Shown: one piece after another, positions 5,972 through 11,539 of the stretch
Numbering within the stretch: position 1 is the first letter of the stretch
How the letters are laid out: each line of letters opens with the position of its first letter
Source of the DNA: Pseudoflavonifractor sp. An184
GTDB lineage: Bacteria > Bacillota > Clostridia > Oscillospirales > Oscillospiraceae
Assembly (NCBI RefSeq): GCF_002160305.1
Contig: NZ_NFKI01000008.1
Span: forward strand, 1 to 64,000
DNA length: 64,000 nt
Direction of reading: 5' to 3'
The notes under the pieces: generated by a model
Told to the model about the DNA's origin: nothing
Databases searched by the model: none
Seen by the model: the letters and a program-made list of their open reading frames with translations, nothing else
Translations under genes and position numbers: made by a program

Positions 5972-6757
5972 ATGAATAAGCGCCCCCCTCTGCGCCGTTC
6001 CGCCCCTGTTGAGGCGGAGAACGACGGTGTGATCGAGGGCCGCAACGCAGTGATCGAGGCGCTGCGGGCTGGCACGGCCATTGATAAGATCTATATTATG
6101 AAGGGGGAGACGGACTCCGCCCTGGGCCATATTGCCTCCGCCGCCCGGGAGAAGGGGATCGTGGTGGTGGACGCCGACCGGCGGAAGCTGGACGGTATGA
6201 GCCGCACCCACTCCCACCAGGGAGTTATCGCCCTGGCCGCCGTGCGGGAGTACGCCAGTGTGGACGATATTCTGAACGCCGCCCGGGAGAAGGGGGAGAA
6301 TCCCCTTATCGTGGTGTGTGACGAGCTCAGCGACCCCCACAACCTGGGGGCGGTGATCCGCACCGCCGACGCCGCCGGGGCCCACGGGGTCATCATCCCC
6401 AAGCGCCGCTCCGCCGGCCTCACCGCCGTGGTGGGCAAGACCTCTGCCGGAGCGGTGGCCCACGTGCCCGTGGCCCGGGTGCCCAACCTGCCCGCCCTGC
6501 TCAAGGAGCTGAAGGAGGAGGGAGTCTGGGTGTTCGGCACCGCCGCCGACGGCACCACCCCCCTCTATCAGGCCGATCTGAAGGGGCCTGCCGCCATCGT
6601 CATCGGCAGCGAGGGGACCGGCATGGGGCGGCTGGTGGCGGAGAACTGCGACTTTACCGTCTCCATTCCCATGTTCGGGAAGATCAACTCCCTGAACGCT
6701 TCGGCGGCCGCCGCCGTTCTGCTCTATGAGGCGGTGCGCCAGAGAATGAGCGGCTGA
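5972..6757 (+). CDS. rlmB: 23S rRNA (guanosine-2'-O-)-methyltransferase RlmB, SpoU family
   Basis: A 261-residue SPOUT methyltransferase. It has an N-terminal substrate-binding domain (VIEGRNAVIEALRAG, residues ~19-33), then the trefoil-knot core with VVCDELSDPHNLGAVIRTAD, IVIGSEGTGMGRLV and SIPMFGKINSLNASAAAAVL, motifs 1-3 of the family. It would methylate the ribose of the peptidyl-transferase P-loop guanosine (G2251 in E. coli numbering). An AGGAGGT site precedes the start. A TATAGT hexamer near 5913 may be its -10. Confidence 0.93.
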   Translation: MNKRPPLRRSAPVEAENDGVIEGRNAVIEALRAGTAIDKIYIMKGETDSALGHIASAAREKGIVVVDADRRKLDGMSRTHSHQGVIALAAVREYASVDDILNAAREKGENPLIVVCDELSDPHNLGAVIRTADAAGAHGVIIPKRRSAGLTAVVGKTSAGAVAHVPVARVPNLPALLKELKEEGVWVFGTAADGTTPLYQADLKGPAAIVIGSEGTGMGRLVAENCDFTVSIPMFGKINSLNASAAAAVLLYEAVRQRMSG

Positions 6758-6885
6758 TGGGGGTCTCAGCCCCACAGAGACAATACAAATAGTAGCTTTT
6801 TCAATCGATATTGCAGAGCGGAGATATCTGCGGAGCGGTTCGCCCCGGTTCCGCAGGAAAATTGACAGCACCTAAGGAGTTCCCC

Positions 6886-9111
6886 ATGCGTGACCGCGAT
6901 CCGGAACAACTGAATAAGAAGGACGATCTGGTGGATGTGAAGGAGCTGGTCCGGGATGCGGAGCCGGGCCCCTTCACACTGGACGACATTCTGGCGGAGT
7001 ACGGAGTGAAGCGGGAGCCGGAGCCTGAGGCGGTTCCCCGGAGGATCGAAAGCCGAAGCCAGCCTCAGAGGACGGAAAAAGACAACGTGGTGCTGTTTCC
7101 CGGCGCCCGCTCTGCTCCTGTGCCGGAGCCGCCCCAGGCGGCGGAAAAAGAGAACGCCCGGGAGCCGGAGGAGGACAGAGAGCCGGAATCCGGAGAGGAC
7201 GCAGAGGACCAGGAGGGGGAGGACGAGGAGCCCAACGACCGGGTGGTGGAGTTCCCGGAGGAGGAGAGCGTCCTGTCCGCCTTTTTAAAGGACGTCACCC
7301 GAAAGGCGGACCACTACGCGGACCACATGTTCCAGGAGTCGGAGGAGATGGATCAGGAGGAGATCCACCGCCTGGAGAAGCTGATCCCCGGCACCGATGT
7401 GGAGGAGGACGAGCCCGAGGAGTCCCCCGGCCGCTTTCGCCGCCCCCGCAGGCCGGAGCCGCCGCCCCCGGATACCGCGCCCCAGGAGCTGGCCCGACAG
7501 TACGGCAAGGGGCTGAAGGTCATGCGCCTGCGGGTCGTGCTGGTCTTTCTGCTGGCCGCCGCCGCCCTGTTTCAGCTGGCGGTACCCGCCGCCGGATTTG
7601 TGTGGCTGCCCCCTCTGGACGGCTACCAGGTGCAGGTTTGGATTGCCGCGGGACTGCTGGGGGCGGGGATTCTGCTGTCCCTGGACGTGTTGGCTGCCGG
7701 GATTGCCCGGATGTTCCGGGGACGGGTGGGGATGGACACCCTGGCCGCCCTGTCCGGAATCTTTACCCTGGCCGACGCCCTGGTTCTGGCCGTCACCCAG
7801 GACCGGGAGGGACAGCTGCCCTACTCGGCCGCCGTTTTGGCGGGGCTGTTTTTCCTGCTCCACGGGACGTACCATAAAAAGTGCGGCCTGCGCCTGAGCT
7901 GCCGCACGGCGGCCTCGGTGTCCGAGCCCTACATCCTAACCTTGGATGAGGGGAAATGGAATGGCCGGGACACTTACTGCAAGTGGACCGGAACCCCCAA
8001 CGGCTTCGGCAGCCAGATCCAGATGGACGACGGAGCCCAGCGGATCTACCGGGTGGTATGCCCGGTCCTTCTGCTCGCCTGCGTGCTGCTCTCCCTGCTG
8101 GCCTCCTATGGGGTGGGCAAGCCGCAGCACCTGCTGTGGTGCCTGTCCGCCACCTTCACCGCCGCCGCCGCCTTCGGCGGGGCGCTGGTCTACGGCCGCC
8201 CCTTTCACAAGGTGGCCCGCCGCCTGGCCCAGAGCGGAGGGGCCCTGGCCGGCTGGCCGGGGATGGCCCAGTCCCGGAAGGGGGACCGGGTGCTCATCAC
8301 CGACGGGGACCTGTTCCCGCCCGGCTATGTGGAGCTCAACGGCATCAAGGTCTTTGGAGACTGGTCCATTGAGAAGGTGGTGGGGTGTACCGCCACGCTG
8401 ATCCGGGACTCCGGCAGCGGCCTGACCAAATTGTTTCACGACCTGCTTCGGGCCCAGGGGGCCATTTTTCGCCGGGCGGACGACCTGTGCTGTTATGAGG
8501 GGGGAGGTCTGTCCGCCAATATCCGGGGAGAGCAGGTGCTGGTGGGTTCCGCCGCCTTTATGAACCTGATGGAGGTGCGCCTCCCCCAGGGCCTCCATGT
8601 AAAGAACGCGGTGTTCTGCGCCATCGACGGGGAGCTGGCGGGCATCTTTGCCCTGAACTACACCCTGCCCGACGTGGTGTTCCCCGCCCTGGACTCCCTC
8701 ATGCGGGAGAAGGTGGGGCCGGTGCTGGCCACCCGGGACTTCAATCTCATCCCCTCCATGCTTCATCAGCGCTTCAAGCTGGCGGCGGACAAGATGGACT
8801 TTCCGCCGGTGGAGCGCCGCCGGGAGCTGTCCGACCCGGACCAGCCCCACAGCGAGACCATCACCGCGGTCCTGTGCCGGGAGGGGCTGCTGCCCTATGC
8901 CGACGCGGTGGTGGGGGCCAAGCGCCTGCGGTGGTGCGCCCGGTTCGGGGCGGCGCTCACCTGCGTGGGTTCCGCCCTGGGACTCCTGCTGGCCTACTAC
9001 CTGACGGCGGTGGACGCCTACGGCTCCCTGTCCCCCCTGAATCTGTTGGTTTTCCTGCTGTTCTGGGTGGCGCCGGTGTGGTTTTTGACCAGCTGGGTGC
9101 CCAGATATTGA
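6886..9111 (+). CDS. Degenerate P-type ATPase-like membrane protein
   Basis: 741 residues, start chosen at the ATG behind AAGGAG (an upstream in-frame start has no ribosome site). Residues 1-205 are acidic and low-complexity, probably disordered. Membrane segments follow from ~213 (about six up to ~430), then a soluble region of ~250 residues, then two C-terminal membrane helices (~685-741). This order matches P1B metal-pump ATPases. GGGLSAN...EQVLVGSAAFM resembles the nucleotide-domain G-x-G and V-G-N region, and VLATRDFN sits where TGDN should be. The phosphorylation motif DKTGT is replaced by ITDGDLFPPG, and I see no CPC membrane motif or GDGxND loop. It is probably not a pump; function unknown. 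Downstream of rlmB. Confidence 0.7.
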   Translation: MRDRDPEQLNKKDDLVDVKELVRDAEPGPFTLDDILAEYGVKREPEPEAVPRRIESRSQPQRTEKDNVVLFPGARSAPVPEPPQAAEKENAREPEEDREPESGEDAEDQEGEDEEPNDRVVEFPEEESVLSAFLKDVTRKADHYADHMFQESEEMDQEEIHRLEKLIPGTDVEEDEPEESPGRFRRPRRPEPPPPDTAPQELARQYGKGLKVMRLRVVLVFLLAAAALFQLAVPAAGFVWLPPLDGYQVQVWIAAGLLGAGILLSLDVLAAGIARMFRGRVGMDTLAALSGIFTLADALVLAVTQDREGQLPYSAAVLAGLFFLLHGTYHKKCGLRLSCRTAASVSEPYILTLDEGKWNGRDTYCKWTGTPNGFGSQIQMDDGAQRIYRVVCPVLLLACVLLSLLASYGVGKPQHLLWCLSATFTAAAAFGGALVYGRPFHKVARRLAQSGGALAGWPGMAQSRKGDRVLITDGDLFPPGYVELNGIKVFGDWSIEKVVGCTATLIRDSGSGLTKLFHDLLRAQGAIFRRADDLCCYEGGGLSANIRGEQVLVGSAAFMNLMEVRLPQGLHVKNAVFCAIDGELAGIFALNYTLPDVVFPALDSLMREKVGPVLATRDFNLIPSMLHQRFKLAADKMDFPPVERRRELSDPDQPHSETITAVLCREGLLPYADAVVGAKRLRWCARFGAALTCVGSALGLLLAYYLTAVDAYGSLSPLNLLVFLLFWVAPVWFLTSWVPRY

Positions 9112-9174: not shown

Positions 9175-9696
9175 ATGATCCGACTTGCAAATCCCTCCGA
9201 TTTGGACGCCATTGCGGAGATCTATGAGGAGATTCTGGCCGCCGAGGACGCCCGCCCGGCGTCCTACACCAACTGGCAGCGGGGAAAGTACCCCACCCGG
9301 GATACGGCAGAGGCCGCCCTGGAGGCGGGCACCCTGTGGGTGGGGGAGGAGGACGGAGCGGTATACGGCTGCGTCAACCTGAACGGGGAGCAGCTGCCCG
9401 AGTACGACGCCATCCCCTGGTCCATCCCCGCCCAGCCCTCGGAGGTGGGGGTGATCCACACCCTGGTCATCCGGCCCAGCTGGTCAGGGCGGGGAAAGGC
9501 CCGGGAGTTTGTGGCCTTCTGTGAGGAGGAGCTCCGCCGCCAGGGGAAAAAGGCGGTCCGCCTGGACACCTATGAGGGAAATTTCCCCGCCAACACCATG
9601 TACCCCCGCCTGGGCTATCGCCTGGCCGGGGCCACCGAGTTTTTCTTCCAGGGGTTTATCCACGAGGTGCTCAACTGCTACGAGAAGCAGCTCTGA
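9175..9696 (+). CDS. GNAT family N-acetyltransferase
   Basis: 173 residues with a GNAT fold: opening IRLANPSDLDAIAEIYEEI, a central beta4 VGVIHTLVIRPSWSGRGKAREFV with the acetyl-CoA pyrophosphate loop R-x-x-G-x-G/A, then GKKAVRLDTYEGNFPANTMYPRLGYR. The substrate cannot be told; small-molecule or antibiotic acetylation are usual for the family. The gene follows the P-type-like gene by 63 bases with a GGAAAGGA site, so the two may be cotranscribed. Confidence 0.9.
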   Translation: MIRLANPSDLDAIAEIYEEILAAEDARPASYTNWQRGKYPTRDTAEAALEAGTLWVGEEDGAVYGCVNLNGEQLPEYDAIPWSIPAQPSEVGVIHTLVIRPSWSGRGKAREFVAFCEEELRRQGKKAVRLDTYEGNFPANTMYPRLGYRLAGATEFFFQGFIHEVLNCYEKQL

Positions 9697-9719
9697 GCAG
9701 GATAGGAGGCGTGTTTGGC

Positions 9720-9965
9720 GTGACAGAAGCGGTTGTGACGGGACTGCTGATCGGAGTGGGCGGTATCATTTTTTCGGTGCTCGTTCCACTCCCCATTTGC
9801 GGGGTGCGTTTTGTCAATTCCATTTATAGTCTGCTGGTCTATCTGATTGTGGTGGTTTCCATCTTCGGCGTTTTGATCCTCGCCAAATTCTCCAGCATGG
9901 AGCGGGCGCGCAGGGAACCCGGCGCGGAACATGGGGAGGCCAAGGATAAGGCGAGTGAGCCCTAA
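9720..9965 (+). CDS. Small two-helix membrane protein
   Basis: About 81 residues with two hydrophobic helices (TGLLIGVGGIIFSVLVPL and SLLVYLIVVVSIFGVLILAK) and a short charged C-terminus. An AGGAGG site at 9704-9709 sits only one base before a GTG at 9711 but ten bases before the GTG at 9720, so I prefer the latter. It is followed after 18 bases by the PF06541 protein, suggesting one transcription unit. No family recognised. Confidence 0.65.
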   Translation: MTEAVVTGLLIGVGGIIFSVLVPLPICGVRFVNSIYSLLVYLIVVVSIFGVLILAKFSSMERARREPGAEHGEAKDKASEP

Positions 9966-9983
9966 GTAGCCCGGAGGTTTTCC

Positions 9984-10910
9984 ATGCTCTATCTGACCCT
10001 TTGGATCTTTTTTGTCTATGCCTTCCTGGGCTGGTGCACGGAGGTGGGCTATGCCGCCCTGCGTACGGGCAGGTTTGTGAACCGGGGCTTTCTCAACGGC
10101 CCGGTGTGTCCCATTTACGGCTTCGGGGTGATCATTGTGCTCTGGGTGCTGGAGCCTCTGGCGGAACATATCCTGCTGCTGTTTTTGGGTTCCGTGGTTC
10201 TCACCTCCGCGCTGGAGTGGATCACCGGCCTGGTGCTGGAGAAGCTGTTCCACCAGCGGTGGTGGGATTACTCCGACGAGCCCTTGAATATCGGGGGATA
10301 TATCTGCCTGCGCTTCTCCCTGATGTGGGGGGCGGCCTGCCTGTTTGTGGTGAAAATCCTCCACCCCGCCGTTGTGTGGGGCATCCGGGCGCTGCCGCAC
10401 CTGGCGGGATGGGGGCTGCTGGCGGTGTTTGCCGCCGTGATGGCGGTGGACCTGGCGGCCACGGTGCGCACTATCGCCCGGATGAACAAGCAGCTGAGCC
10501 AGCTGGACGAGCTGGCCGAACGGCTCCGGGAGGTGTCCAACGAGCTGGGCGGGCACCTGGCCGTCCGGGTGATCGACGCGGCGGAGGCGGGGGACGACCT
10601 GCGGGAGGACTTCGAGGACGGCCTGGACCAGCTGCGGGAGGCCGCGGAGCGCCGGCGCCGGGAGCTGCTGGAGGGGATGGACGAGGTAAAGGACTCCCTG
10701 GCCCAGAGGCGGTTCCAGCTGCGCATGGACCAGGCGGAGTGGCTGGAGGAGCGGGAGCGGGATCTGGACGAGCTGCGCAGCCGGCTTGAGGAGGCCCGGG
10801 GCCGGTACATCTTCGGCCAGAAGCGCCTGCTGGCCGCCTTCCCCCGGATGCGGTCCCTGGACCACCGAAGGACGCTGGAGCGTCTGCGCCGCTGGCTGGA
10901 GAAGCGGTGA
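9984..10910 (+). CDS. PF06541-type (CmpB-like, putative ABC transporter type IV) membrane protein with coiled-coil tail
   Basis: 308 residues. The first ~165 hold about five membrane helices with the family pattern FLGWCTEVGYAALRTGRFVNRG, NGPVCPIYGFGV and a WDYSDEPLNIGGYICLRFS loop. Residues ~170-308 are a long, highly charged helical region (many E/R/L heptads) without clear homology. The family is widespread in clostridia and annotated only as a putative transporter part; no ATPase partner is nearby. Confidence 0.8.
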   Translation: MLYLTLWIFFVYAFLGWCTEVGYAALRTGRFVNRGFLNGPVCPIYGFGVIIVLWVLEPLAEHILLLFLGSVVLTSALEWITGLVLEKLFHQRWWDYSDEPLNIGGYICLRFSLMWGAACLFVVKILHPAVVWGIRALPHLAGWGLLAVFAAVMAVDLAATVRTIARMNKQLSQLDELAERLREVSNELGGHLAVRVIDAAEAGDDLREDFEDGLDQLREAAERRRRELLEGMDEVKDSLAQRRFQLRMDQAEWLEERERDLDELRSRLEEARGRYIFGQKRLLAAFPRMRSLDHRRTLERLRRWLEKR

Positions 10911-10941
10911 ACATGCTGGGGCGTGGTATTGAAAATCATAT

Positions 10942-10970
10942 TTGCATTTTCTATCACCCCGTGGTAGCAT
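10942..10970 (+). promoter_or_regulatory. Promoter of the DUF1836-degV unit
   Basis: TTGCAT (10942-10947), a 17-base spacer, TAGCAT (10965-10970), 35 bases before the DUF1836 start. Confidence 0.55.
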
Positions 10971-11005
10971 AGAGTTAATGAGAAGCGAGGGAGGAGAACG
11001 CCCGG

Positions 11006-11539
11006 ATGAACGAACTGATGGACCTGAAGGAGCGCATGGAGCATGAGCGCCCCGCCCAGTGGCACGAGCTGCCCGATATTGCCCTGTATATGGATCAGAT
11101 CATCGCCTATATGCCCCGGCAGCTGATCCGCTTTGACGACCGGGAGGCCCTCACCTCCGCCATGGTGAACAACTACATCAAGGACGGCCTGGTGCCCCGG
11201 GCGGCGGGCAAGCGGTACGGGCCCATCCACCTGGGCTACCTCACGGCGGTGTGCGCCCTGAAGAAGGTGCTCTCTGTGCGGGACATCGGCATCCTGCTGC
11301 GGGCGGCGGAGGAGCGGAACAAGACGCCGGAGGAGCTCTATCAATATTTCTGCGGCGCTTTGGATCAGGCCCTCAGCGATACCGCCGCCGCCATTGACGC
11401 GGACGCCGGCCGGGAGGATCTGGCCCGCATGGCCCTGGACCTGGCCCTGCGCAGCTACGCCGACCAGCTGGCCTGCGCCCGCATTCTGGACATTCTCCAG
11501 CCCTCGGGGGAGGAACACCCCAAGAAAGCCAAAAAATAA
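11006..11539 (+). CDS. DUF1836 domain protein
   Basis: 177 residues, start behind GGAGG. The N-terminal part (YMDQIIAYMPRQLIRFDDRE, NNYIKDGLVPRAAGKRYGPI, then HLGYLTAVCALKKVLSVRDI) is the DUF1836 signature. It resembles a MerR-like winged helix with a helix-turn-helix followed by a YG-x-x-H-L segment, so a DNA-binding regulator is plausible but unproven. It sits 26 bases before degV and is probably cotranscribed. Confidence 0.8.
   Translation: MNELMDLKERMEHERPAQWHELPDIALYMDQIIAYMPRQLIRFDDREALTSAMVNNYIKDGLVPRAAGKRYGPIHLGYLTAVCALKKVLSVRDIGILLRAAEERNKTPEELYQYFCGALDQALSDTAAAIDADAGREDLARMALDLALRSYADQLACARILDILQPSGEEHPKKAKK

Follow-up and report, generated by a model that had tools for sequence, protein, structure and literature searches.

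Identification of the open reading frame

What becomes of a heavy-metal P-type ATPase once the motifs that drive pumping are gone, and why would such a gene be kept? The question is raised by an open reading frame within the window, the 64,000-nucleotide stretch of DNA analyzed here. A first-pass annotation had described this frame as an intact one of 741 codons, not simply decayed, that encodes a catalytically dead P1B-type pump with about 205 acidic, low-complexity residues at its N-terminus. Translation of positions 6886–9111 on the forward strand yielded 741 residues without a stop, bearing out the intact frame. The start at ATG 6886 is supported because a ribosome-binding site, AAGGAG, precedes it at 6874–6879. 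The features of the locus are as follows.

5972..6757, + strand: a gene that we take to be rlmB, encoding 23S rRNA 2'-O-ribose methyltransferase; conserved upstream partner (Pfam SpoU_methylase E 4.7e-44, SpoU_sub_bind E 3.4e-17)
6886..9111, + strand: pseudo-P1B ATPase (dead CopA-like pump), 741 aa (translation, profile, model, fold match, motif counts)
6886..7500, + strand: N-terminal tail, residues 1–205, mostly disordered, acidic (pLDDT, composition)
6973..7005, + strand: short conserved tail motif FTLDDILAEYG, residues 30–40 (helix 32–38 predicted, low confidence)
7270..7383, + strand: juxtamembrane helical hairpin, residues 129–166 (model helices 129–153 and 157–166)
7513..7914, + strand: membrane helices 1–4, interpreted as MA, MB, M1 and M2, residues 210–343 (DSSP of model)
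7930..7989, + strand: A-domain remnant, two strands, residues 349–368, without TGES (model, motif counts)
8032..8235, + strand: M3 and M4, residues 383–450 (profile alignment, model)
8299..8319, + strand: DKTGT site, now T472-D-G-D-L-F-P478 (profile alignment, conservation, motif counts)
8329..8673, + strand: N-domain-like region, residues 482–596 (structural match to 2voy_J)
8731..8745, + strand: T616-R-D-F-N620, replacing TGDN (profile alignment, conservation)
8833..8865, + strand: site of the missing GDGxND segment, about residues 650–660 (gap in profile alignment, 0/158 ORFs)
8887..9096, + strand: M5 and M6, residues 668–737 (model, conservation; W727 in 40/41)

The tail comprises 30% D+E and 14% K+R over the 204 residues counted, giving a net charge of −32, and every 10-residue block up to residue 130 had a mean pLDDT below 60 in the structural model. 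The acidity described for the window protein thus stands, but it does not extend to the whole family: tails were net negative in 32 of 35 family sequences (median −28) and net positive in three. Their length ranged from 108 to 607 residues. Within the short tail motif, I at position 35 was found in 27 and E at position 38 in 25 of 34 sequences, window included, and the corresponding DNA pattern had one further match in the own genome. The juxtamembrane hairpin was kept among 52 aligned close relatives, with D142 and M148 invariant in that alignment.

Fold and descent from P1B pumps

Searched singly, the window protein had no usable match in Pfam, zero matches in a PDB sequence search and an E value of only 0.022 with the NCBIfam CopA model. 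Matches to SepX/GlpR were rejected, the best reaching 21.3 bits against a cut-off of 160 and lying over the low-complexity tail. A structure was next predicted with AlphaFold, for which the window protein was aligned with 51 others from the named loci (the best 80 of 119 relatives). The model had a mean pLDDT of 82.9 and a pTM of 0.75, with 475 of 741 residues at 90 or above. Foldseek placed copper P1B pumps at the top of the solved structures (4bbj with E 5.1e-17, then ATP7B and 3rfu). VIA-align, used as a second look at the Foldseek matches, gave a Z score of 21.6 for 4bbj over 481 residues (model residues 204–741, 15% identity, rmsd 9.5). The N domain alone (model 480–593) superposed on 2voy_J, from CopA of Archaeoglobus, with Z 14.8 and rmsd 2.2 over 109 residues.

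Eight membrane helices are read from the model: an initial four, then a short hairpin, a further two, the P/N region in solution and a final two. This arrangement and the fold match confirm the P1B layout proposed earlier, of membrane helices, a bipartite soluble region and two last helices; the GGGLSAN...VLVGS segment is also present as described. Structure prediction had been named as a check that could have returned something other than a P-type fold, and it returned the P1B fold. At the level of the family, hhalign of a 36-member profile with five true P1B pumps from related genomes gave a probability of 99.6 and an E value of 9.6e-25 over 319 columns. The NCBIfam CopA model was matched by 21 of the 36 members at E up to 1 (best 2.9e-16) and the ZntA model by 11 at the same threshold.

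In a tree built on 579 columns from 20 family members and 40 controls, the family formed a single long branch close to where Cu-type and Zn-type pumps separate. All 40 controls formed one clade, although the monophyly check for the family came back negative because the drawn root lay inside it. The protein is descended from a P1B (heavy-metal) P-type ATPase. With the CopA or P1B-1 copper exporters (4bbj, 3rfu; ATP7B) it has in common the fold over residues 204–741, the helix set, the N domain and the order of parts. It differs from them in lacking TGES, CPC, DKTGT, GDGxND and the N-terminal CxxC, in an A domain reduced to a hairpin, in its long disordered tail and in an identity of only 14–15%. 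The zinc/cadmium P1B ATPases 4umv and 7qbz likewise have the fold in common (Z 18.5 and 17.2, respectively), with the same losses in the window family as against CopA.

Motifs lost and kept

Motifs were counted in 158 distinct family ORFs and in 45 control pumps, the latter chosen for having DKTGT; both figures refer to distinct strings, and a gene seen in a long locus and again in a truncated one may have been counted double. Five ORFs without DKTGT that scored below 250 bits were left out (L056, split in two; L201, divergent; L271, L272, L273, partial gene). DKTGT was found in none of the 158 family ORFs compared to 45/45 controls, and TGES and GDGxND were equally absent, against 44/45 controls in each case. 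A search with the A-domain model PF00122, suggested by the first-pass annotation, hit one of 36 members at E 1, which is not a real match. The E/H of SEHP and the GxG motif are ATP contacts of the N domain; a SEHP-like pattern was present in 1/158 family ORFs and 37/45 controls. MxxSS, YN and an N-terminal CxxC are motifs of the P1B-1 (CopA) subtype. Loose patterns anywhere in the ORF recovered MxxSS in 9/158 family ORFs (34/45 controls), YN in 10/158 (33/45) and CPx in 4/158 (45/45), and the N-terminal CxxC occurred in 0/158 as opposed to 30/45.

Residue conservation was followed in 41 sequences, the window protein and 40 from outside its genus. The window carries ITDGDLFPPG in place of DKTGT and TRDFN in place of TGDN, as the annotation stated; its report of no GDGxND was also confirmed, and CPC was absent by reading. 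The CPC site reads AAF in the window, and M4 is broken there at 428–433 in the model. Proline at 429, between the lost CPC cysteines, was found in 33/41 sequences and is A in the window. Across the family DKTGT is replaced by x-D-x-[DE]-hydrophobic-F-P, with D473 in 30, D/E at 475 in 37, F477 in 34 and P478 in 33 of the 41. At the TGDN site a D-x-N is retained (D618 in 40/41, N620 in 37/41). The second glycine of GxG, G541, is present in 40/41, so the N-domain ATP motif is partly kept. G554 is found in all 41 sequences, and Y592 and W727 in 40 each.

In the window protein, then, the A domain is largely gone along with its TGES, and DKTGT, the GDGxND segment and the cysteines of CPC are missing as well; it has been maintained in this state across the order. 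Orthologues had been proposed as the test of whether the window copy is a recent loss in one genome, and this was rejected, as DKTGT, GDGxND and TGES were missing across the family ORFs inspected. Judged from the aligned sequences, the loss does not look like random decay: the catalytic residues are gone and another conserved set has become established. On the P-type fold these newly conserved residues would lie on one face. We infer from the motifs that the protein runs no phosphoenzyme cycle and does not pump. Against inactivity, the position of the phosphorylated aspartate is still D in 10 of the 41 sequences; it varies otherwise (T in 8, R in 6, S in 5).

Distribution and selection

The named loci (best 80 of 119 relatives) belong, among other genera, to Pseudoflavonifractor, Lawsonibacter, Flavonifractor and Intestinimonas, and from this we take the order to be GTDB Oscillospirales. 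Of the 297 genomes sampled from it, 290 had a match with an E value of 1e-40 or lower, most of them judged by score without reading of the sequence. Copy number was nearly always one, with two matches in G296 and G448 among the matches listed. Of the seven misses, G519 has the divergent member L201 (E 1.3e-33), and the loci fetched from the other six, L220 among them, were true pumps; four weaker matches (G253:C121, G280:C68, G337:C53 and G337:C9) lie outside these fetched loci. In the class sample all nine genomes of the own order, own genome included, matched at 2.9e-84 or better. The best match among its 187 genomes of other orders was 1.2e-34, with DKTGT in 21/21 loci fetched; a member that had diverged to the extent of L201 could hide in those orders, since its score would be that of a true pump. 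Two of 199 genomes in the phylum sample matched at 1e-36, both from the own family. A family member was found in 57 of 60 relatives, a count lowered from 58 when the weak matches L057–L061 proved to be true pumps and the match of G019 was not counted.

Pairwise Nei-Gojobori dN/dS was calculated for nine comparisons with the window. Values ranged from 0.06 to 0.32 for the core, from 0.02 to 0.25 for the P/N part and from 0.12 to 0.45 for the tail, and the P/N part was more constrained than the whole core in 9/9 comparisons. By these codon comparisons the gene is under purifying selection. The core values agree with the earlier view that the frame is not simply decayed, and decay was rejected on the low dN/dS and the open frames. 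The family displays two marks of a pseudoenzyme family, absence of catalytic motifs across orthologues and purifying selection; the motif loss and the conservation are well supported. A single stop was seen in eight of the order matches listed (G434, G442, G313, G344, G362, G424, G290 and G057). The family matches of G313, G344 and G362 (one genus, g202) and of G057 have one in-frame TGA.

Gene neighborhood

rlmB was scored as upstream when it lay on the same strand and no more than 1.2 kb from the longest open frame identified for the family. This was so in 45 of 46 order loci, drawn from more than 20 families with four of the 46 from the own genus; the sole exception, L033, has no rlmB in 5 kb upstream. 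Among the named loci (best 80 of 119 relatives) the count was 71, and the other nine have at most 232 nt upstream. The rlmB linkage that had been put forward for checking is thus conserved, and order-wide the pseudo-pump is kept as a near-universal, usually single-copy gene beside rlmB. Co-transcription of the two genes is likely because the gaps between them are mostly below 100 nt. The gap measures 128 nt in the window, where a consensus scan revealed no terminator-like or promoter-like site.

The next commonest neighbor was an EF-G paralogue, found in 14/46 order loci and directly downstream in 13. It lies downstream on the same strand in L034, L040, L044, L047, L251, L254, L256, L258, L260, L265, L266, L268, L269 and L270, and Pfam was run on three of these downstream paralogues. 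It was found in 0/80 named close-relative loci (best 80 of 119) and does not follow the window gene. The remaining neighbor clusters reached at most 4 of 46 order loci. Survival of one gene pair in reshuffled surroundings argues for a functional link between rlmB and the pseudo-pump, because the pair persists while other neighbors change.

Other observations were made around these loci. The L035 locus also contains an EF-G paralogue. Downstream of the window gene, at 9175–11536, lie a GNAT acetyltransferase, a PF06541 (ABC_trans_CmpB) protein and DUF1836; among the 80 named loci (best 80 of 119), read by eye, GNAT occurred in about 12 and PF06541 and DUF1836 downstream in at most four. Replacement of yacP/Rae1 in the rlmB operon was considered and dropped, as the own genome still has yacP at another place. 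Many other Clostridia carry the YacP domain (PF05991) inside open frames of 850–920 aa (e.g., G098:C5:60643-61131 and G081:C1:955422-955910), which suggests fusion with a larger partner. A second P-type-like ORF was seen just upstream of rlmB in L044 (7880-10090, − strand) and L270 (5871-7934, − strand), and an ORF of the same type in L273. It is without DKTGT, GDGxND and TGES, and the L270 copy matches PF00122 only. By coordinates, G277, a third genome of the L044/L270 genus, has it at equal distance. P-type-like frames of 820–822 aa in L276 and L280 (two genomes from a different genus in the same family, f18) match this second ORF and likewise lack DKTGT, GDGxND and TGES by pattern.

Possible functions

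Our leading explanation, for which we judge the chances to be even, is that a P1B pump lost transport and was fixed early in the order as a membrane scaffold or sensor. We likewise infer its function from the features above. The helix bundle with its P/N head would form a platform anchored in the membrane. The long disordered, usually acidic tail with its DDILAEY-like motif would extend into the cytosol and bind a partner. The dead active-site face, with D473, D475, D618 and N620, might bind a ligand, or an ion, through which the conformation is set. The partner could be part of the translation or ribosome-maturation machinery near the membrane, as suggested by the rlmB link and by the EF-G paralogue in 14/46 loci. 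This translation link, drawn from gene neighborhood, is the weakest step. The first-pass annotation had raised a metal sensor, a scaffold or a regulator as possible roles. Of these, a metal sensor acting through the former transport site seems less probable than a scaffold, because the heavy-metal ligand patterns searched for are mostly gone.

Several points speak against a scaffold or sensor tied to translation. rlmB may be retained merely for a shared promoter, and L033 has no rlmB in 5 kb upstream. The EF-G paralogue is missing downstream in the window and in the named loci (0/80, best 80 of 119). Tail acidity is not universal, with 3/35 tails net positive. The scheme in full is that a single event in the order's ancestor converted a P-type ion pump into a core membrane platform that no longer transports but links the membrane with translation or the maturation of ribosomes (rlmB, EF-G paralogue). 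The dead site would serve as a switch responding to a ligand or ion, and the acidic tail would be the partner-binding arm. As a whole we regard it as unlikely.

The homology to CopA, and the fact that other dead paralogues regulate active relatives, would fit a regulatory role toward a genuine P1B pump in the cell, for instance through association with CopA. A client would nearly always be present, a true heavy-metal P-type ATPase being found above the family cut-off in 146/148 order genomes; this co-occurrence carries little weight, however, because true pumps are near-universal. rlmB is the sole conserved neighbor in the 46 order loci, where no recurring metal-resistance neighbor was found, and the N-terminal CxxC of 30/45 controls occurs in 0/158 family ORFs. 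We consider such regulation quite unlikely. A shifted active site, in which D473-x-D475 takes over from DKTGT as a HAD-type motif and the protein is an enzyme of another activity (phosphatase or phosphotransferase), would fit the retention of D473 (30/41), of D/E at 475 (37/41) and of D618 (40/41). It has precedents, as migration of residues has been described for pseudoenzymes of other families (PMC10211241). T472, not D473, falls on the nucleophile in the ungapped profile alignment by reading, however, GDGxND is absent from 158/158 family ORFs, and L043, L044 and L046 have no D-x-[DE] there, making a shifted site improbable.

It is about as improbable that the protein is a passive channel or ATP-independent transporter that kept the permeation path and lost the motor. 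The helix set and the M4 break are kept in the model, and the TM4 proline is found in 33/41 sequences. The metal-ligand patterns, however, are mostly lost (CPx in 4, MxxSS in 9 and YN in 10 of 158), and the P/N part is under stronger constraint than the whole core in 9/9 comparisons, which a mere channel would not need. That chance, or polar effects within the operon, preserved the gene as a relic throughout the lineage is hardly credible: eight of the order matches listed do contain one stop, but dN/dS is well below 1, and a relic of 700 residues would have vanished repeatedly rather than be carried by 290/297 genomes.

Relation to known systems

We know of no P-type ATPase lineage in which all members are dead. 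No description of this pseudo-pump family, and no paper on a lineage-wide dead P1B branch, was found in the open-licence PubMed Central literature searched. In the available part of Palmgren's 2023 review of P-type ATPase enigmas, 'pseudo' occurs once, in a species name (PMC10654040). The window family resembles pseudoenzymes in general (iRhoms, pseudokinases, prozyme) in that the fold is kept, the catalytic motifs are lost lineage-wide and conservation is strong. It differs from those covered in the available part of the pseudoenzyme review (PMC10211241), which contains none of the words ATPase, transporter and pump. The parent family is known, and the lineage-wide dead branch would be a pseudoenzyme from a P1B pump.

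The pseudo-pump is a core gene of its order, paired with an rRNA methyltransferase and unstudied as far as the literature searched shows. If abundant gut bacteria do carry a dead pump in nearly every genome of an order, this motor fold would prove open to reuse in a scaffolding or sensing role.
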